A stretch of DNA of 33,805 bases from Gemmatimonadota bacterium (GTDB lineage: Bacteria; Latescibacterota; UBA2968; UBA8231): assembly GCA_028875335.1 (NCBI GenBank), contig JAPPEF010000108.1, positions 1 through 33,805 of the forward strand, in the 5' to 3' direction. Shown piece by piece: positions 5,027-14,955 of this stretch; positions within the stretch are counted from its first letter, which is position 1, and each line of letters opens with the position of its first letter. The notes below the pieces were generated by a model that was not told the origin of the DNA, ran no database searches, and was given only the letters and a program-made list of their open reading frames with translations. The position numbers and the translations under genes were made by a program.

Positions 5027-6181
5027 ATGGAAGACAACATACTACAGGCTGTCGACGAGCAGCGCCTACTTGATACGGCCAAGGCGCTGATTGCGGTGCC
5101 CAGCCCGACACTGGATGCTGGCGCGGTAGCTGATGCATTGGCGGCCATATTGGCTGAGGAGGGGTTTGCCGTGGAGCGGCCCCAAGCCGATTGGCCGCAA
5201 GCACCAGCCGTGGTCGCTCGCTTCGACAGCGGGCAGCCCGGGCGGGTGTTGCAATTTGATGGGCACTTGGACACGGTGCATCTGCCCTTTGTGCCGCCCA
5301 AGGTGGAGAATGGTCATCTCTATGGGTCGGGTTCGTCCGACATGAAGGGAGGGATCGCCGCCTTCGTCGAAGCGCTCAGGGCGTTGAGGGATGTGGGCGC
5401 ACTGACCAAGGGGGCGGTCTTGCTTACGGCCCACGACCATCACGAAGCACCTTGGGGCGACCGCCGCCAGCTTTTGGCCTTGATCCGCGAAGGTTTTGTC
5501 GGCGACGGAGTGCTGCTGCCGGAGTATCTAGGTGATGCGTTGCCGATTGCCGGTCGCGGGATGGCCGTGTTTAGCGTGGAGGTCGAGCGCGATGGCGCGC
5601 CGGTACACGAGGGGCTGAGGCCCGCCGGGCTGCCGGACGTGATCGCTGCGGGGGCCGAGGTGGTGTTGCGGCTGAACGCGCTAAACGAGCATCTGCGCGA
5701 GCGAACCGCGCCCCATGTCGGCAGCGACACACTGTTTATTGGCCGGATTGAAGGTGGCCAGATCTATAATCAGGTTCCGGTCCAGTGCCGCGTCGAAGGG
5801 ACTCGCCGCTGGGTGGCGGCCGGCTCAGGGGCGGCGGCGCGCCGCGAGATGGAGGACCTGCTCGCCGACGTAGCTGCGGCAAGCGGCACCCGCATCCGGC
5901 TCGCCGACTGGAACATGCCCGGCGATGCTTTTGCGGTAGATCAGAACAGTCCGCTAGTGGGTGCGTTCCAGTCTGCACACGAACAGGTGACCGGGGCACC
6001 ACTACCCTTGGGAGGCAAACCTTTTATCGACGACGGCAATGTCTTTATGGCTGCCGGGATTGAAGCCCTAACCCACGGTCCCTGCGCCATGGGGGCGCAC
6101 ACGACCGACGAGCAGGTGCCGGTGGCCGAGTTGGTGCGGGTGGCGAAGGTGTATGCGCTGACGGCGCAGACTTTTTGCTAA
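5027..6181 (+). CDS. M20-family metallopeptidase (ArgE/DapE/CPG2 type)
   Basis: The 384-residue protein starts at ATG 5027 behind AAGGAG (5014-5019). It has the M20 layout: FDGHLDTVH (first zinc ligand and catalytic Asp), GSGSSDMKGG (bridging Asp), TAHDHHEAPWGD in the position of the usual EE catalytic/ligand pair, and AMGAHTTDEQVPV with the C-terminal His ligand. A central insertion (~170-290) is the lid/dimerisation domain. Members hydrolyse amide bonds of acylated amino acids, succinyl-diaminopimelate or small peptides. Which substrate applies here cannot be decided. The stop overlaps the converging transporter gene by four bases. Confidence 0.85.
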   Translation: MEDNILQAVDEQRLLDTAKALIAVPSPTLDAGAVADALAAILAEEGFAVERPQADWPQAPAVVARFDSGQPGRVLQFDGHLDTVHLPFVPPKVENGHLYGSGSSDMKGGIAAFVEALRALRDVGALTKGAVLLTAHDHHEAPWGDRRQLLALIREGFVGDGVLLPEYLGDALPIAGRGMAVFSVEVERDGAPVHEGLRPAGLPDVIAAGAEVVLRLNALNEHLRERTAPHVGSDTLFIGRIEGGQIYNQVPVQCRVEGTRRWVAAGSGAAARREMEDLLADVAAASGTRIRLADWNMPGDAFAVDQNSPLVGAFQSAHEQVTGAPLPLGGKPFIDDGNVFMAAGIEALTHGPCAMGAHTTDEQVPVAELVRVAKVYALTAQTFC

Positions 6182-7458
6182 GCGGCCTCAATGGCGCGCG
6201 CTGCGGCCGTGCCTCGCTCCTCATCGACGAAGTAGAGGCAGACTCCGCCCGCGACGAAGAGGACGACGATCGACAAAATTCCCACGCGCGGGCTGCCGGT
6301 CAGTACCCCAATCCAGCCCACGAGCACTGGGCCGATGACCGCGGCGAATTTGCCCAGCATGTTGTAAAAGCCGAAAAACTCCGCTGCGCGGTCGCGGGGA
6401 ATGAGCCTTGAGTAGAGCGAGCGGCTCAGGGCTTGTACGCCGCCTTGGACTAGACCGACGGCCACGGCCAAAGCGTAGAATTCCCAGACGGCATTCAAAA
6501 AATATCCCCACACTGTCGCCGCGATATAGACGGCTAGGCCGATGAAGATCCCCTTGCGGGTGCCGATCCGCTCGCCGAGCCAGCCAAAGGCTATCGCCGC
6601 GGGGAAGCCCACGAACTGAGTAATGCCCAAGGCGATGAGTAGGTCATTGGTATCAAAGCCAAGGGACAAGCCATAGTCGATGGCCATGCGGACGATGGTA
6701 TCGACGCCGTCGATGTACAGCCAATAGCCGATGAGAAAGACAAAGGTCGTGCGTAGCTGCCGAATGTCTCGGCCAGTCTCAATGAGCTGCTGATAGCCGG
6801 CCGAGACCGCACTCCAGCCGCGATGACCGCGCACGGGCGGCGATTCCTCTACCCACAAAAAGAGCGGCAGCGAAAAGCCAGCCCACCAGATGGCGACCAG
6901 CAAAAAGCACACGCGCACGGCCTCGCTGGCATCGGCCAACCCGAAGGTCGTGGGGTGCAAGACCATCACCACATTGAGCGCAAACAGCAAGCCGCCGCCT
7001 AGATAGCCGAGGCTATATCCGAGCGCTGAGACCGAGTCGGACTTGTCGCGCCCGACCACTTCCACGATGAGCGCATCGTAAAAGGTGTTGCCACCGGAGA
7101 AGCCGATGGCGGCCAACACATAGACCACAACCGCCAGTTCCCATGCGCCTTGGGCGACCATGTAGAGGCACCCCGTGGCGAGGACGCCCAAGAAGGCGAA
7201 GGCAAACAGGAACTTGCGCCGAGTGCCGCCTTGGTCGGCAATGGCCCCCAAAAGAGGGGCTAACAATACAACGACCAGGCTGCTGAGGGAGTTGGCCAGC
7301 CCCAGTTGGAAGGTGCTCTCGGTGACGTCGCTGCCAGCGCTCCAGTAGGACTTAAAAAATACCGGGAAGAAGGCGGCGATGACCGTGGTGGCAAAGGCCG
7401 AGTTGGCCCAGTCGTACAAGGCCCAGGCGATGATCGGTTTTTTGGCGTTGGTTGGCAT
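6178..7458 (-). CDS. UMF1-family (Atg22-like) MFS transporter
   Basis: This 426-residue protein has about twelve hydrophobic segments and begins MPTNAKKPIIAWALYDWANS. The ALYDWANSAF motif at the first helix is characteristic of the UMF1/Atg22 branch of the major facilitator superfamily. LGAIADQGGTRRK is the conserved loop between helices 2 and 3. The best-known relative, yeast Atg22, exports amino acids from the vacuole; bacterial substrates are largely unknown. It is convergent with the M20 peptidase, and a link between peptide breakdown and amino-acid transport is only a guess. Confidence 0.85.
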   Translation of the reverse strand: MPTNAKKPIIAWALYDWANSAFATTVIAAFFPVFFKSYWSAGSDVTESTFQLGLANSLSSLVVVLLAPLLGAIADQGGTRRKFLFAFAFLGVLATGCLYMVAQGAWELAVVVYVLAAIGFSGGNTFYDALIVEVVGRDKSDSVSALGYSLGYLGGGLLFALNVVMVLHPTTFGLADASEAVRVCFLLVAIWWAGFSLPLFLWVEESPPVRGHRGWSAVSAGYQQLIETGRDIRQLRTTFVFLIGYWLYIDGVDTIVRMAIDYGLSLGFDTNDLLIALGITQFVGFPAAIAFGWLGERIGTRKGIFIGLAVYIAATVWGYFLNAVWEFYALAVAVGLVQGGVQALSRSLYSRLIPRDRAAEFFGFYNMLGKFAAVIGPVLVGWIGVLTGSPRVGILSIVVLFVAGGVCLYFVDEERGTAAARAIEAA

Positions 7459-9711: not shown

Positions 9712-9761
9712 TTTTAGATTTAGATTTTGCTTGACAAATTTAGCATGCACGATATATTTAG
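9712..9761 (+). promoter_or_regulatory. promoter and candidate operator of the Argonaute operon
   Basis: A perfect -35 TTGACA (9731-9736) is followed after 16 bases by TATATT (9753-9758), five of six to the -10 consensus. ATTTAG occurs at 9718-9723, 9738-9743 and 9756-9761, that is at 20- and 18-base spacing, and a TTTTAG lies at 9712. The third copy overlaps the -10 and the second lies just after the -35. This fits binding by the XRE regulator encoded immediately downstream, but the operator role is inferred. The Shine-Dalgarno AGGAGG is at 9771-9776. Confidence 0.6.
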
Positions 9762-9784
9762 AAAACCAACAGGAGGAAGGACAA

Positions 9785-10138
9785 ATGGGAGCCGCTGAAC
9801 TAGGGCGCTATCTCAAGAATCTGAGGCAGCACCGGGAGCTGACTCTGCGAGCGGTCGAGAAGGAGACGGAAGTCTCGAACGCCTACTTGAGCCAATTGGA
9901 GGGTGGGAAAATCAGGAATCCATCTCCGACGGTGCTTCACAAGCTGAGTAAGCTTTACGGGAGTTCCTACGCGACGCTGATGAAGAGTGCCGGTTATCCT
10001 GTACCTGGCGAGGAGGAAGGGCAGGAAAAGGAGTTTGGTTTCGCAGCAAGAATCGGCCCGGTCACTTCCGAGGAAGAGGATGACCTCATCGAGTATCTGG
10101 AATTCCTCCGCTTAAGACGCAGAAGGAGTGGAAAATAA
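9785..10138 (+). CDS. XRE-family HTH transcriptional regulator, first gene of Argonaute operon
   Basis: The start ATG 9785 lies eight bases after AGGAGG. The frame can be extended upstream to 9635, but that would run through the promoter. The 117-residue protein has a Cro/C1-type helix-turn-helix at residues ~5-65: LGRYLKNLRQHRELTLRAVE, then VSNAYLSQLEGGKIRNPS as turn and recognition helix, and LHKLSKLYGSSYATLMKSAG. A short acidic linker and a basic tail (LRLRRRRSGK) follow. Its stop and the next gene's ATG share one base (TAATG), showing tight coupling. It probably represses its own operon through the repeated sites upstream. Such regulators are common in defence and prophage loci. Confidence 0.88.
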   Translation: MGAAELGRYLKNLRQHRELTLRAVEKETEVSNAYLSQLEGGKIRNPSPTVLHKLSKLYGSSYATLMKSAGYPVPGEEEGQEKEFGFAARIGPVTSEEEDDLIEYLEFLRLRRRRSGK

Positions 10139-11088
10139 TGCAGTGGTCCGTCACTGATAGCAAGATTTACCGGCGGTGTTCGAGGCAATGGTACTTCTAC
10201 AGGCTGTTCAGCAGCCACAAGGCCAAGGACCCAGCACGTAGAAAAGCATTCAGGCTGGGTAAGCTCCAGAGCATAAGCGCTTGGCGCGGCAGTGTGGTGG
10301 ACGATGTGCTGAGCGAGACGCTGATACCTGCTTTGGGAAGGAATGTAGCACCGAATTTGAGGCGACTCATAGAGAAAGCGCTTGAGAGATTCGACAAGTG
10401 CCTCGAGGTCGCCCGGCAGCATCGGGTGTTTGAAGACGGAATCAAGTTTTCAGAGGAGAAGGACTTCGCGGCTTTTCACTGTATGGAATATGGCGGCGAT
10501 ATCCCCGAGGAAGAGGTAGAGACTGCGAGGTCTGAGGTCCGGCAGGCAATCACTAATCTGTTCAGTTCCGAGATGGAGCCTCTAAGGAAGAAGCTCAAGG
10601 AAGCAGAGTACATAGCGCCCCAGAGATCGATATGGTTCCAGCACACCGATGTCTCAGCACGGGCAACGCCCGATGTGACAGCCTTCTTCTCGGACGAGCC
10701 TCCGCTCATCGTGGACTGGAAGGTACATACCTTCGGGCAGCATGAGGCATGGCTCCAGCTAGGCGTATATGCCATCGCCCTTGTGCGAGGCACCCGTCCG
10801 GTGAACTACACCGGCTACTGGCAGAACTGGAACGAGGGCGATATCCAGCTAATGGAGGCGCAGTTCCTTACCAATCGGCTGCGGGAGTACAGGCTCACAG
10901 AGGAGGCCGGCCGGCAGCTCGACCAGTACATCGCGTCGAGTATCGTCGAGATGCAGTACGCGGTTGACGGAAGAAAGCCCGAAGAGATGCAGGCAGAGGA
11001 GTTCCCCGTGACGAAATACCCTGATGAGTGCGATCGGTGTCAGTACCGGGCGCTCTGCTGGGAGGAGAATGGCAATGGCAGGACTTGA
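10138..11088 (+). CDS. Cas4/RecB-like PD-(D/E)XK nuclease with iron-sulfur-type cysteines
   Basis: This 316-residue protein begins WSVTDSKIYRRCSRQWYFYR, the usual RecB/Cas4-family opening with Cys14. The nuclease core shows ATPDV (Asp179), IVDWK (Asp193, Lys195) and WLQLGVY (Gln207, Tyr211), the family's D-DxK-QxxxY pattern. The C-terminus carries CDRCQYRALC, cysteines 298, 301 and 307. With Cys14 these form the C...CxxCx5C set that binds a 4Fe-4S cluster in Cas4, AddB and related nucleases. The early GxxxxH motif is RGSVVDD, lacking the histidine. Relatives cut or resect DNA ends. The gene overlaps the Argonaute start by 14 bases, so it likely acts with Argonaute, perhaps making or trimming guides or degrading target DNA. 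Confidence 0.85.
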   Translation: MQWSVTDSKIYRRCSRQWYFYRLFSSHKAKDPARRKAFRLGKLQSISAWRGSVVDDVLSETLIPALGRNVAPNLRRLIEKALERFDKCLEVARQHRVFEDGIKFSEEKDFAAFHCMEYGGDIPEEEVETARSEVRQAITNLFSSEMEPLRKKLKEAEYIAPQRSIWFQHTDVSARATPDVTAFFSDEPPLIVDWKVHTFGQHEAWLQLGVYAIALVRGTRPVNYTGYWQNWNEGDIQLMEAQFLTNRLREYRLTEEAGRQLDQYIASSIVEMQYAVDGRKPEEMQAEEFPVTKYPDECDRCQYRALCWEENGNGRT

Positions 11089-13459
11089 GACAAACGTATA
11101 TCCTATCCTCAACCTCAATGAGCTATCTGCGCGATACAGGCTTTACAAGATTAGGGGTCTGCGCAAAGGCGGGGAGTACTATCAGAACCGCCAAGAAATC
11201 GGGAAGAAGATGAGCATTAAGCACCAGACCCCGGCGACTGTCGTAGACATTGACGGGGTGCCGCACTTGGTGCTGAGAGACGACGTTACGGCTGTTCCTG
11301 AAAAGATGCCTCTTGTCAGAGGGACAGCCTACTTCGACCGGCTCGATAATGTGTTCCCCTTGGACTTCACTAGGAGAGATCCCGTCACCGACACGATATG
11401 CCTGAGATTTCTGAGGTTCGCTATTCAGAACGCTCTGAATGCCCGGATAGAACTGTGGCAGCCGGGGCGCGGGCGGCCCTTCTTCGAAAGGACGCCGCAG
11501 ATATCAGATGACGTGGCTATCTTCAGCGGCTTCAGCGTCCGACCGGTCATAGCACCGAATGGGAGTATCGGGCTTTGCGTCGATTGCACGTCGAAATTCG
11601 TGTCTAAGAGGCCGCTTCCCATGAAGATGACCGTGGACACCTTCCGCAGGTACAGGCAGCAGCACTTCATCTACCACTTTGGCGTAGACTGGTATGACGT
11701 CCGCCTTGATGACCTAGCGGACGTCAACGTCTCGGAAGACACGGTCTCTACTGACACAGGTCAGGTCCCTCTCATTAACTACATCATTCAACGCGTCCGG
11801 AAGCCCATCCCACCGGAGCTTGCCAGTCTTCCGCATGATGCCTCTGTGGCATACTACATGAACAACTCTGGAGAGACTAGAGCTGTGCCAACTGGTTTGT
11901 GTTACCAAGTGCTGGATACACAGCATCGGAACGTGCAGAGATACCAAAACAAGGTTACACTGTCTCCGATGGAACGACACCAGAGGATTCAGGAATACGT
12001 GGAGCAGCTTCTGATGCGCCTGCGGTTCGGTAATGACGGGACCATCATCAGGGTCTCAGAGACTTCGGTACGTATACCGCAGCGTATGTTCCAGATTCCG
12101 GACTACGAGTTCGGGAATGGCTACAAGCTCTCTGTCCGTAGCAGCCCTGATGCCGATCGGGTAAGCCTTGGGCAGATAGGGCGTAAGCGGCGCGATCTTC
12201 TCCAGGATAGGAAAGCCGGTTTCTATAGGTCAGACCCGCTTGACCAGCCCCAATACCTAGTTCTTCCTGAGAGCGTGTACGAGAGTTGGGGTAAGCAGTA
12301 CGTCGACGATCTCAGGCAAGCCGTGAGGAAACTGTTTCCACACTTGTCGGATGCGCTACTGGGGAAGCCGTACAAACCCGAGATTGTGACGTATTCTGAC
12401 TTCAAACCGCGGACATTCGTTGACCAAGGTAAGGCCATCCTAGAGGCCGTACGGGAGCGTAATCCTAGGACGGGCTGTGCGCTCGTCATGGTGCACCATG
12501 TAAAAGACAGGGAGACACGTGAGCACGACGAACTCTCGGCGATGATTGTGAATAGGTTCTTCAAGGACTTTGGAATCAGGGCGGCCGTAAACCATTCGCG
12601 GATGGGGGCTGAGTGCTATGAGTTGGTTGATGGGGACAGCAACTACCGGATACGGCAGGACAAGCGTCGGAAGCTGGTACCGTATCTTACGAACGTGGCC
12701 CTGAACAAGATACTACTTGTGAATGAAAGGTGGCCCTTTGTTCTGGGGACACCGCTTCACGCGGATATCACCGTCGGAATTGATGTCAAGGGCAACACTG
12801 CCGGATTTACGCTGATAAACCGGACAGGGAACATCATCCACCCGTACTGTAAGTCGTCTAGGCAGAAGGAGAAGCTTACCACAGAGCAGGTTTCTCATGA
12901 ATTCGCAAGGCTCGTGCGTCAGGAAGCCCAATCCATAGAGTCCCCGGCGAGGAACATCGTTGTCCATCGCGACGGAAGGAGTTACGAGTCGGAAATTGAG
13001 GGCCTCAGAAGGGCCATGGACAGTCTACGACAGGATGGGACAATCGACGCCAATGCCAAGTTGACGGTCCTTGAAGTAGCCAAAACATCCCCTGCACCAC
13101 TGCGACTCTTCGATGTCGAGCAGGACAGGCGGGACAATACAACGGTGAGCAATCCCCAAGTGGGCTGCTACTACATGCTCTCAGAAGATGAGGCGTATCT
13201 CTGCACGACAGGAAAGCCCTTCAAGCATCCCGGGACCTCTAAGCCGATCCATGTGCTCCGTGTCGAGGGAGAGATGCCTCTCGCAGAATGTCTTGAGGAT
13301 TTCTACTCACTTAGTACCCTTACATGGACCCGGCCGGAAGACTGTACGCGCACCCCGATAACCATCAAACTTACCGATAGGTACCTCGGTGAGGACGCCA
13401 GCGAATACGATGACGATGCTTTGGAGTCTGGCAGCGAAGAGGAGGATGAGGGCGAATGA
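11075..13459 (+). CDS. ago: full-length prokaryotic Argonaute (N-PAZ-MID-PIWI), slicer tetrad present
   Basis: The preferred start is ATG 11075, seven bases after GGAGGAG (11061-11067); ATG 11069 and a more distant start at 11024 are alternatives. This gives 794 residues. An N domain, a PAZ-like region (~180-290, with LPHDASVAYYMNNSG then AVPTGLCYQVL) and an L2 segment RIPQRMFQIPDYEFGNG precede MID (~460-560, VALNKILLVNERWPFVLG). The PIWI domain has GIDVKGNTAGF (Asp570), RQKEKLTTEQV (Glu599), VVHRDGR (Asp633) and ITIKLTDRYL (Asp768). These match the DEDD slicer tetrad in order and spacing. The usual MID YK...QK phosphate-pocket residues are not evident. The last ~20 residues are strongly acidic, which is unusual. 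Family members use small DNA or RNA guides to cut invading nucleic acid. Codon use differs from flanking genes. Confidence 0.92.
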   Translation: MAGLETNVYPILNLNELSARYRLYKIRGLRKGGEYYQNRQEIGKKMSIKHQTPATVVDIDGVPHLVLRDDVTAVPEKMPLVRGTAYFDRLDNVFPLDFTRRDPVTDTICLRFLRFAIQNALNARIELWQPGRGRPFFERTPQISDDVAIFSGFSVRPVIAPNGSIGLCVDCTSKFVSKRPLPMKMTVDTFRRYRQQHFIYHFGVDWYDVRLDDLADVNVSEDTVSTDTGQVPLINYIIQRVRKPIPPELASLPHDASVAYYMNNSGETRAVPTGLCYQVLDTQHRNVQRYQNKVTLSPMERHQRIQEYVEQLLMRLRFGNDGTIIRVSETSVRIPQRMFQIPDYEFGNGYKLSVRSSPDADRVSLGQIGRKRRDLLQDRKAGFYRSDPLDQPQYLVLPESVYESWGKQYVDDLRQAVRKLFPHLSDALLGKPYKPEIVTYSDFKPRTFVDQGKAILEAVRERNPRTGCALVMVHHVKDRETREHDELSAMIVNRFFKDFGIRAAVNHSRMGAECYELVDGDSNYRIRQDKRRKLVPYLTNVALNKILLVNERWPFVLGTPLHADITVGIDVKGNTAGFTLINRTGNIIHPYCKSSRQKEKLTTEQVSHEFARLVRQEAQSIESPARNIVVHRDGRSYESEIEGLRRAMDSLRQDGTIDANAKLTVLEVAKTSPAPLRLFDVEQDRRDNTTVSNPQVGCYYMLSEDEAYLCTTGKPFKHPGTSKPIHVLRVEGEMPLAECLEDFYSLSTLTWTRPEDCTRTPITIKLTDRYLGEDASEYDDDALESGSEEEDEGE

Positions 13460-13812
13460 GTGCCATAGGGTTGTATTCGGGTATCTACGTACAGCTTCGG
13501 GAATTTGGTGAACTGCTTGACGAAGTGTTGATGGAGCTCAAGGGAGGCGGTAGCCTAGGTAACCGGATCAACGTAGATGCACTTGCCTCGCGCTTTGAGG
13601 AGATTGGAGCACAGGACGCTGTTAACTTACAGACGCAGATGCTCCGTGTTGTTCTACAGAAGAGAATGGGCAAGGGTCCGGGATACTGGGTGAATCTTGG
13701 GCATCGACTCCGGAACGAAAAGGCAGACGATGAGCTAGTTGCTGCGCTGGAGAGGACGGCGACCATTCTGGAACATGAGAGGGCAGGGGCCTTCGCGGAG
13801 ATGAGGGGATAG
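13456..13812 (+). CDS. small unrecognised protein of the Argonaute operon
   Basis: This 118-residue protein starts at an ATGA that overlaps the Argonaute stop by four bases, with a GAGGAGGATGAGGG purine-rich stretch upstream. It appears almost wholly helical: QLREFGELLDEVLMELKGGG near the N-terminus, a central NLQTQMLRVVLQKRMGKGPG, and a final helix ELVAALERTATILEHERAGA. There is no signal peptide, cysteine or recognisable motif. Position between Argonaute and the metallopeptidase-like gene suggests a partner or adaptor of one of them. I do not recognise the family and assign no function. Confidence 0.8.
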   Translation: MSAIGLYSGIYVQLREFGELLDEVLMELKGGGSLGNRINVDALASRFEEIGAQDAVNLQTQMLRVVLQKRMGKGPGYWVNLGHRLRNEKADDELVAALERTATILEHERAGAFAEMRG

Positions 13813-13815
13813 AGA

Positions 13816-14955
13816 GTGATCGAGGACTACCTGCAAGGTACTCTCGACCAGTTGGCTGAGAGAGCAAAAGTTCTGAAGGGAAGGATTCCCACCAGAAGAC
13901 TCCCCGCCGTATACCGCGGACTCGACCAAAAGAGCCGGGATCTGACTGACGAAACCATTGACAAAATCAAGCGAATCCAGACAGCACCCGAGTTCCAGCT
14001 ACCGCAGAATCAACCCCAGCGATTCAGAGCATTGAGCGGGGCTGTTCAGGACATAGACTTCCTAGAGACGGTGGCAATCTCTGCTCTGGTCAGGGCTGGA
14101 GATGATGACCACAGGCTGAATTCTCTGCTCGGAAGGATCTGCGATGAGATCGAGTTCCCACTCATTCCGCCGGTTGTGACGACGCTTTCTGATTTCAGTC
14201 TTTACTACCACATCTATTGCAACCTGAATCTGATGCGTGTTCCCCTGCAAGAGAGCAGGTTCATGCTGCACCTACCGGATCTCTATCATGAATTATGCCA
14301 CCCACTTCTGCATGAAACGAATAACCCGAGCGTCGAGCCCCTCAGAGATGCGGCTGTGATGGCGCTTGGTGAGGTGTTGAACTACCTAGATCAGGAATTA
14401 CAAAAGGAGAGGCGCAGCCGGTCATCTCCTTATATGGAGTTTGTAATACAGCGGTGGCAGAACCGCTGGACGGACTGGATTCAGGAGCTGTTCTGCGATC
14501 TGTTCGCAGTCTATACACTCGGGCCGGCTATGGCGTGGTCGCATTTCCACTTAGTGGCAAAGTCCGGCAGGGATACGTTTAACTATAGTATGGAAAAGCA
14601 CCCCTCAAACTCTGCACGGATGGACGGGATGTTGTATGCCCTCAGGCTAGCTGGATTCACTGACGAGGCAACCAGAATACGGGCGCACTGGCTGGAGCTC
14701 CTAAAAACCATTGGATCAGAACCGGATGGCGTCCACGGGAGATGTTACCCACAGCACCTGCTTAATAGAATCGCGGAATGCGCGCTAAAAGGTGTACAAG
14801 GCATCAAGTGCCGGATTGCTCGAAGGGACACGACAGGCGAAGTGCATGAGCTTCTCAACGAGGCATGGGAGAGATTCTGGAGCGCCCCGTCGGACTATGT
14901 TGAGTGGGAACGCCAAGCTGTCGAGAGGCTCTTCAACGAATCAGCAGACGCGTGA
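13816..14955 (+). CDS. HExxH putative zinc metallopeptidase of the Argonaute operon
   Basis: The protein begins at GTG 13816, three bases after the preceding stop, with AGGGG upstream, and has 379 residues. LHLPDLYHELCHPLLHE contains HExxH (His158, Glu159, His162). Sixty-odd residues later WIQELFCDLFAVYTLGPAMA gives ExxxD (Glu224, Asp228), followed by KHPSNSARMDGMLYAL. In several zincin families a downstream E(x)xxD helix supplies the third ligand and a HPxxxxR segment follows, so this is probably a gluzincin-like protease. No membrane segment or signal peptide is seen. It is not an obvious ImmA (DUF955) protein, though its placement with an XRE regulator recalls ImmA-regulator pairs. Activity and substrate are unproven. 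Confidence 0.72.
   Translation: MIEDYLQGTLDQLAERAKVLKGRIPTRRLPAVYRGLDQKSRDLTDETIDKIKRIQTAPEFQLPQNQPQRFRALSGAVQDIDFLETVAISALVRAGDDDHRLNSLLGRICDEIEFPLIPPVVTTLSDFSLYYHIYCNLNLMRVPLQESRFMLHLPDLYHELCHPLLHETNNPSVEPLRDAAVMALGEVLNYLDQELQKERRSRSSPYMEFVIQRWQNRWTDWIQELFCDLFAVYTLGPAMAWSHFHLVAKSGRDTFNYSMEKHPSNSARMDGMLYALRLAGFTDEATRIRAHWLELLKTIGSEPDGVHGRCYPQHLLNRIAECALKGVQGIKCRIARRDTTGEVHELLNEAWERFWSAPSDYVEWERQAVERLFNESADA

Follow-up and report, generated by a model that had tools for sequence, protein, structure and literature searches.

A 33,805-nt stretch of DNA (forward strand of contig JAPPEF010000108.1, assembly GCA_028875335.1), referred to at its whole length as the window, carries at positions 9785-14955 five open reading frames (ORFs) on one strand, with neighbours that overlap or lie a few bases apart. 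These encode an XRE-family regulator (TR), a Cas4-like nuclease (NUC), a full-length prokaryotic Argonaute (AGO; pAgo for such proteins in general), a 118-aa protein (SML) and an HExxH protein (HEX). Judging from the comparisons presented here, which show a shared gene content and order, conserved catalytic residues and a conserved operator before TR, the locus appears to be a complete copy of an Argonaute system that has five components and is widespread, and SML and HEX are almost certainly core parts of it. The initial annotation of this DNA had proposed a five-gene Argonaute operon with an XRE regulator, a Cas4-like nuclease, a 118-residue protein and an HExxH protein, which the ORFs and family matches confirmed. 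The same genes are found in the same order in many phyla, so the arrangement is not a product of chance.

Co-occurrence of the five genes

A scan of GTDB genomes for HEX yielded 70 loci, forming 65 clusters at 95% HEX identity, in hosts that included Planctomycetota, Chloroflexota, Acidobacteriota, Bacteroidota, Pseudomonadota and Cyanobacteriota, amongst others. One locus (L060) is the plasmid of L001 again; it is counted within the 70 and was dropped from the operator, tree and correlation analyses. Counted with profiles of all five genes that were built from these same loci, AGO (whole, partial or interrupted) was present in 58 of the 70, and 48 had the full set of five, ordered alike on a single strand, including L029 with its interrupted AGO. 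Ten AGO-bearing loci were incomplete: four are cut at contig ends (L023, L038, L059, L063), L020 has AGO, SML and HEX without NUC, TR was undetected in L021, and the remaining four (L068, L070, L072, L073) belong to the VbAgo type compared below. The twelve HEX loci without AGO comprised three cut at contig ends (L031, L062, L066), five with the arrangement TR-SML-HEX (L009, L035, L053, L058, L067) and four that are remote or doubtful (L069, L071, L074, L075).

Searching in the other direction, with AGO, covered 1,943 genomes in total: 14 chosen genomes, 395 from the class to which a Pedobacter belongs, 385 from that of Enhydrobacter, and, by phylum, 390, 382 and 377 for a Chloroflexi metagenome-assembled genome (MAG), a Schlesneria MAG and Calothrix, respectively. 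Nine of the 14 chosen genomes gave a match, eight of these full-length and in genomes chosen for HEX, and no AGO match was found elsewhere in the genomes of L058, L067 and L035. Outside the chosen genomes there were seven full-length matches at E <= 1e-30 (one being the plasmid record L003 and one the contig of L022), all with NUC upstream and a small gene plus HEX downstream; some of the SML matches were weak, with E-values as high as 1e-3 against a small database. In a plasmid collection, the five records with a full-length AGO match were the same five that contained HEX, and HEX was undetected in six records with partial, remote pAgo matches. Altogether, the small gene and HEX followed AGO in 11/11 distinct pAgo-ascertained full-length loci (5 + 6); the small gene of L005 is annotated in place and is unmatched by the SML profile. 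The initial annotation had suggested checking co-occurrence and order, and had considered that the Argonaute might regularly occur without the last two genes or that the five genes might be confined to this strain. Neither was observed, as the five genes recur in order in many phyla and every pAgo-ascertained full-length relative had both genes; with the 48 complete loci, its assignment of the 118-residue and HExxH proteins to the system is upheld.

Two remote pAgos with a PIWI match only (L084/L093 and L089/L094) also lie in TR-NUC-AGO-small-HEX operons (L093:1323-6641 and L094:4805-10000), forming a remote group with the same five-gene order and an Argonaute that has the DEDD tetrad; the L094 HEX shows weak M48 similarity. 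Additionally, the plasmid cassettes of L001, L002 and L004 are flanked by other defence-like genes: a phospholipase of the type found in cyclic-oligonucleotide-based antiphage signalling systems (CBASS) stands beside the Rhizobium cassette, and multiubiquitin/ThiF/DUF6527 sets stand beside those of Runella and Spirosoma.

Argonaute, nuclease and composition of the operon

The AGO gene (11075-13459, + strand, with an additional in-frame ATG at 11069) gave an E-value of 6e-284 against the PADLOC model pAgo_II (PDLC02382), which is the best-matching PADLOC model for RslAgo too, and 3e-6 against Pfam Piwi, just under the family cut-off. Residues 5-785 align end to end with PliAgo (PDB 7r8k; E 2e-141) with the DEDD tetrad intact (D570, E599, D633, D768), in agreement with the initial annotation of a full-length Argonaute; the tetrad is kept in 64/64 alignment rows covering the four positions. 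At the positions of the neutral MID-pocket residues A479/C483/G542 of PliAgo, described in PMC9360449 together with a group-specific Lys (565), the window protein has Ser, Val and Val without the charged residues of (Y/H/R)KQK, and a Lys stands two residues past D570. A PD-(D/E)XK nuclease and a helix-turn-helix (HTH) regulator precede AGO. By these features the protein appears to be a pAgo of the PliAgo group, with a DNA guide and an RNA target, since passages of PMC9360449 describe PliAgo/RslAgo-group pAgos as DNA-guided RNA nucleases. The same passages describe operons of an HTH regulator, a PD-(D/E)XK nuclease and a pAgo, and TR-NUC-AGO is therefore an already known operon type.

NUC (10138-11088, + strand, 316 aa) matched Pfam PDDEXK_1 (E 3e-12) and the PADLOC model Aga_Cas4-like_Nuc (E 1e-105), and carries D179, D193xK195, Q207 and four conserved Cys. 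These Fe-S-type cysteines, pointed out previously, are at positions 14, 298, 301 and 307; each is found in 60-61 of 62 alignment rows, and the remaining rows are truncated. A genuine Cas4 of a clustered regularly interspaced short palindromic repeats (CRISPR) system was considered and rejected, with TIGR00372 scoring 20.9 bits vs a cut-off of 65 and no repeat array in the window. The reported absence of CRISPR likewise held: a scan of the window for direct repeats of >=20 nt, <=120 apart, gave three two-copy pairs, all within genes, and no CRISPR-like array.

The operon differs in composition from its surroundings. AGA and AGG make up 48% of its Arg codons vs 1% in six flanking genes, and ATA makes up 25% of its Ile codons vs 7%, in line with the codon contrast noted at the outset. 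Its bins have a G+C of 0.52-0.56, with flanking 1-kb bins mostly at 0.57-0.65 and one at 0.557. The lower G+C and strong codon contrast are consistent with horizontal transfer of the operon, which supports the earlier suggestion of transfer.

The SML and HEX proteins

Nothing scored above cut-off for either protein in Pfam, PADLOC or NCBIfam; at E <= 1, SML had no PADLOC or NCBIfam match and HEX no PADLOC model, and NCBIfam gave no HEX match. SML (13456-13812, + strand) is predicted to fold as a five-helix bundle (predicted local distance difference test, pLDDT, 87). HEX (13816-14955, + strand, 379 aa) represents a protein family without any Pfam model. Its landmarks are H158-E159-x-x-H162, E224-x-x-C227-D228, H262-P263 and R268, of which H158, E159, H162, E224, C227 and D228 were invariant across the best 120 of 684 relatives (window counted). 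One of these 120 (P0044) is a natural SML-HEX fusion. Across loci, 75 of the 78 aligned rows retained HExxH and ExxxD, the other three being two incomplete sequences and one wrongly picked ORF.

The predicted HEX model (pLDDT 94.5; predicted template modelling score 0.93) is of a helical protein without a membrane-like stretch, in which three short strands are followed by the HExxH helix, and ExxCD lies on a long helix. The modelled layout thus appears to follow the gluzincin metallopeptidase plan, and the sequence has the clan MA gluzincin signature of HExxH with ExxxD further downstream in a second helix. In gluzincins such a downstream Glu is a ligand, a role predicted for it here as well. 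HEX is very probably a protease. It is very unlikely that it is non-proteolytic in vivo and serves AGO as a structural or chaperone subunit retaining a zinc site: such a role would fit the co-variation of HEX with AGO given below and the finding that the model had no reliable match among solved folds, with none of the protease folds matching significantly, but the catalytic Glu and the second-helix ExxxD, needless for a scaffold, are kept nearly throughout, divergent groups included.

Several HEX relatives occur in other settings. In Solimonas (L074:6777-9304), a remote relative has a 175-aa ORF on one side and a gene resembling dCTP deaminases (Pfam DCD, E 4e-32) on the other, with no Argonaute found in that genome; this neighbourhood is possibly another defence setting of the HEX family. 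Remote relatives without a nearby Argonaute were also seen in a Methanosarcinales MAG and a Chloroflexi MAG (L075:7443-8516 and L071:7458-8732, respectively). On a 3.2-kb contig (L031:419-2764), HEX is contained within a 781-aa ORF whose second region includes a further HExxH-like motif (HEFLH) as well as the stretch DYDADAFA.

The regulator and its candidate operator

TR (9785-10138, + strand, 117 aa) matched Pfam HTH_31 (E 1e-12) and carries a C-terminal segment, EExxLxxYLxFxRxR, each position of which is conserved in 54-60 of 60 rows. A palindrome, TGCTWR-N6-YWAGCA, was present upstream of TR in 55 of 56 TR-bearing loci with <=1 mismatch and exactly in 51 of them, compared with at most 5/56 for permuted half-sites. 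As the consensus was derived from the loci in which it was counted, the rest of these loci and the permuted half-sites served as controls: at <=1 mismatch there were 90 sites in 12,320 upstream bases vs 23 in 880,056 bases elsewhere, where about 24 are expected by chance assuming equal base frequencies. Paired sites are spaced by 32 bp (26 cases), 19 bp (7) or 18 bp (2), with the 32-bp pairs being found in Bacteroidota operons. The window has a single exact copy, TGCTTGACAAATTTAGCA (9728-9745), which is the sole match in its whole length.

The best of four promoter matches in the region, a sigma-70-type TTGACA-16-TATATT (9731-9758, + strand), agrees with the consensus at 11 of 12 positions and has its -35 hexamer inside the operator; it is a consensus match, as the scan total was not above that of shuffles (4 vs a shuffle mean of 3.3). 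Since the palindrome before TR is so strongly conserved, TR is probably an autorepressor with a very stable candidate binding site. This operator was absent from the initial annotation.

Loci without Argonaute and co-variation of the genes

On a HEX tree computed with a quick method (68 rows; L060, L062, L066, L031, L069, L071, L074 and L075 left out), the absence of AGO needs four changes, which we read as apparent losses in which TR, SML, HEX and the operator were retained. The operator is present in all five AGO-less TR-SML-HEX loci. NUC was undetected in three of these, and in the other two (L035 and L053) a 109-aa NUC stub adjoins SML-HEX (L035:7310-9170) where AGO is missing; both are Gemmatimonadota MAGs, and the arrangement resembles an internal deletion. 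In an Entotheonella assembly (L029), AGO is interrupted at 5556-6487 by an insertion-sequence-like element with a transposase-like ORF, the other four genes being intact.

An autoregulated XRE gene with an operator is typical of toxin-antitoxin modules. It could be proposed that HEX is a toxic protease held by SML and TR, in a module that ensures maintenance of the cassette or its plasmid, in which case killing may follow loss or shut-off of the cassette. The TR-SML-HEX part retained where NUC and AGO are missing, the apparent autoregulation of TR, the five plasmid records that carry the cassette and a reported pair of an XRE protein and a zinc metalloproteinase (PMC10538038) would agree with this; it leaves the near-constant pairing with this Argonaute clade and the AGO-HEX co-variation unexplained, and we consider it unlikely.

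Co-variation was measured by distance correlations corrected for the other genes in 45 loci and repeated in two taxonomic sub-sets, with near-duplicates (L029, L035, L053, L038; in a second run also L065, L064, L037, L054) dropped. The strongest partial correlation was that of AGO with HEX (0.56; sub-sets 0.63, 0.56), followed by NUC-AGO (0.46; 0.55, 0.14), SML-HEX (0.38; 0.55, 0.49) and TR-SML (0.36; 0.25, 0.27). Lower values were obtained for AGO-SML (0.21; -0.01, 0.20), NUC-SML (0.19; 0.08, 0.38), NUC-HEX (0.03; range -0.09 to 0.16) and TR-AGO (-0.06), and TR-NUC turned from -0.10 to positive in the sub-sets (0.33, 0.21). The simplest reading, in which these values are hints and not contacts, is that HEX may link AGO to SML, and SML may link to TR.

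The low NUC-HEX value bears on the suggestion that HEX cuts NUC into an active DNase. Nuclease-protease pairs, in which a trypsin-like protease activates the nuclease, are recurrent in immunity (PMC12799240), and this operon has genes for both. Such activation is highly improbable here, given that correlation, the undetected or 109-aa-stub NUC in the five AGO-less loci, and L020 with AGO and HEX in the absence of NUC.

A more serious alternative is that AGO bound to invader RNA activates HEX as an effector that cuts essential host or phage proteins and so halts infection, SML being an inhibitor or adaptor and TR merely setting the expression level. The strength of the AGO-HEX co-variation and the conserved AGO-SML-HEX order with overlapping starts are in favour of this possibility, for which Craspase, an RNA-triggered protease, provides a model (PMC9729208). 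However, five loci, accounting for four tree changes, have TR-SML-HEX and the operator but no AGO, so HEX is useful or tolerated without it, and AGO is catalytically complete, with DEDD in all 64 rows, unlike effector-reliant pAgos. We therefore regard an effector protease as doubtful.

A working model for the cassette

Metalloprotease IrrE cleaves the XRE repressor DdrO, and XRE/COG2856 pairs occur in many bacteria (passages of PMC7907104). By analogy, we tentatively favour, with somewhat less than even confidence, a role for HEX as an AGO-coupled protease that would relieve TR repression together with SML, because a soluble gluzincin-like protein is encoded in the same operon as an XRE gene that has a conserved palindrome over its own promoter, and because TR-SML-HEX is kept where AGO is missing. 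NUC would help to make or trim DNA guides, and AGO with invader-derived DNA guides would bind and cut invader RNA. TR dimers on the palindrome over the -35 box would keep expression of the whole operon low. HEX would be coupled to AGO and restrained by SML; it would become active once AGO engages its targets and, with SML as an adaptor or release factor, would cleave or displace TR; the outcome would be strong operon expression limited to the attacked cell. That TR-controlled expression is the main output of HEX is plausible, short of being probable.

Several observations weigh against repressor relief by HEX. The window HEX matched no Pfam family at E <= 1, M78 (ImmA/IrrE) included, and M78 was also absent among the families listed (25 of 27) for 49 HEX relatives. 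The TR-HEX partial correlation was 0.12 (sub-sets -0.22, -0.01), so that direct co-variation of the two was not apparent. Some AGO-less loci are possibly MAG assembly errors; their count is further weakened by L067, which is cut at a contig end, and by the near-identity of L035 and L053, and the genome of AGO-less L009 contains a remote pAgo operon elsewhere (L084/L093). Lastly, the genes before NUC-AGO-small-HEX vary by group (TR; a sigma-70 gene plus another gene; two unclassified genes; no regulator found upstream in L003), and the HEX substrate would therefore have to differ there; in PnyAgo-type loci, the partner at the TR position has weak XRE-likeness (hhalign probability 9.7%).

Extending this reasoning beyond the window, DNA-guided RNA-targeting pAgos may form one superfamily of five-component systems in which recognition of invader RNA by the Argonaute switches on a new zinc-protease family that cuts either the repressor of the operon, as a feedback loop, or cell proteins. 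This would amount to a proteolytic immune pathway under Argonaute control, although we hold this generalization to be rather less than probable.

Novelty and implications

The initial annotation knew of no described system with this composition. This stands for SML and HEX, as no description of the protease-like partner or of SML was found in the open-licence PubMed Central (PMC) literature (the scope being article text, with figures, supplementary tables and closed journals outside it); it does not stand for TR-NUC-AGO, already published in PMC9360449. Passages of PMC9360449 and PMC6299218 do not describe SML or HEX, which the figures or supplementary tables of those articles may show. Apparently new, then, are two constant downstream genes and a conserved operator of a known pAgo operon, all previously unremarked, as well as the apparent retention of TR-SML-HEX without Argonaute, with four changes on the HEX tree.

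RNA-targeting pAgos have so far been studied mostly as lone enzymes. If SML and the protease-like HEX are constant members, tests with Argonaute alone used an incomplete system. The HEX partner hints that protein cutting may be a means of signalling or action in this defence system. The operator offers an immediate reporter for inducers of the system, and for tests the RslAgo operon is already at hand.

Comparison with known systems

RslAgo (WP_013921749.1) is encoded on the R. slithyformis plasmid pRUNSL03, where the next two genes are SML and HEX, so that its operon holds the same five genes as that of the window. Passages of PMC9360449 name only the regulator, nuclease and pAgo for this group; the present analysis adds SML, HEX and the operator.

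The PnyAgo/HpeAgo group, in which PDB 8xih/9wmd are close to one of the loci, shares the upstream Cas4-like nuclease, the downstream small gene and HEX, and DEDD. It differs in that a sigma-70 gene (Sigma70_r4_2, 6/6 loci) and another gene replace TR, and in that a TGTAACC element precedes the sigma gene in 6/6 loci. The TGCTWR operator is absent there: none of the PnyAgo-type, VbAgo-type or remote loci scanned had it ahead of their upstream genes. The gene between sigma-70 and nuclease (L095-L098, L004, L005) encodes a protein of ~180-200 aa with faint XRE-like helices, most ending in an EExxxxYLxRL-like C-terminus. Profile comparison relates SML to the small gene of the PnyAgo-type and similar loci (97%, E 3e-11), to which in turn the small gene of the remote group is weakly matched (60%).

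VbAgo (PDB 9v65), reported to prefer DNA-guided RNA cleavage (PMC13097340), was compared through its relatives and not through its own operon: the L068 Argonaute resembles it closely along its full 782 residues, although the differences are spread over the whole length. It keeps DEDD, and its gene is preceded by that of a Cas4-like nuclease and followed by a 137-aa gene and HEX. Here the two upstream genes are without a Pfam family above cut-off, and H262 of HEX is Tyr (YP..R instead of HP..R). The PnyAgo-type, VbAgo-type and remote HEX proteins otherwise keep HExxH, ExxCD (one ExxAD) and HP..R. Since AGO DEDD and the HEX motifs are kept, NUC-AGO-small-HEX spans the PliAgo, PnyAgo and VbAgo types and one remote group.

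Amongst catalogued systems, the PADLOC class II models (pAgo_II, Aga_Cas4-like_Nuc) match the window AGO and NUC strongly, and no PADLOC model matched SML or HEX at E <= 1. IrrE-DdrO and ImmA-ImmR resemble the window in having an XRE regulator with a palindromic operator and a soluble HExxH protein in the same operon; they differ in that the window HEX misses the M78 profile and that the window adds an Argonaute, a nuclease and SML. Craspase (type III-E CRISPR gRAMP with TPR-CHAT) is likewise an RNA-targeting guided nuclease with a predicted protease. Its protease is caspase-like rather than a zinc protease, its guides are RNA, and no homology between the two systems would be expected. Long-B pAgo systems with toxic effectors, as described in part of PMC10620215, share the pairing of a pAgo with a co-inherited downstream partner; those pAgos are catalytically inactive, whereas the window AGO keeps its full tetrad.

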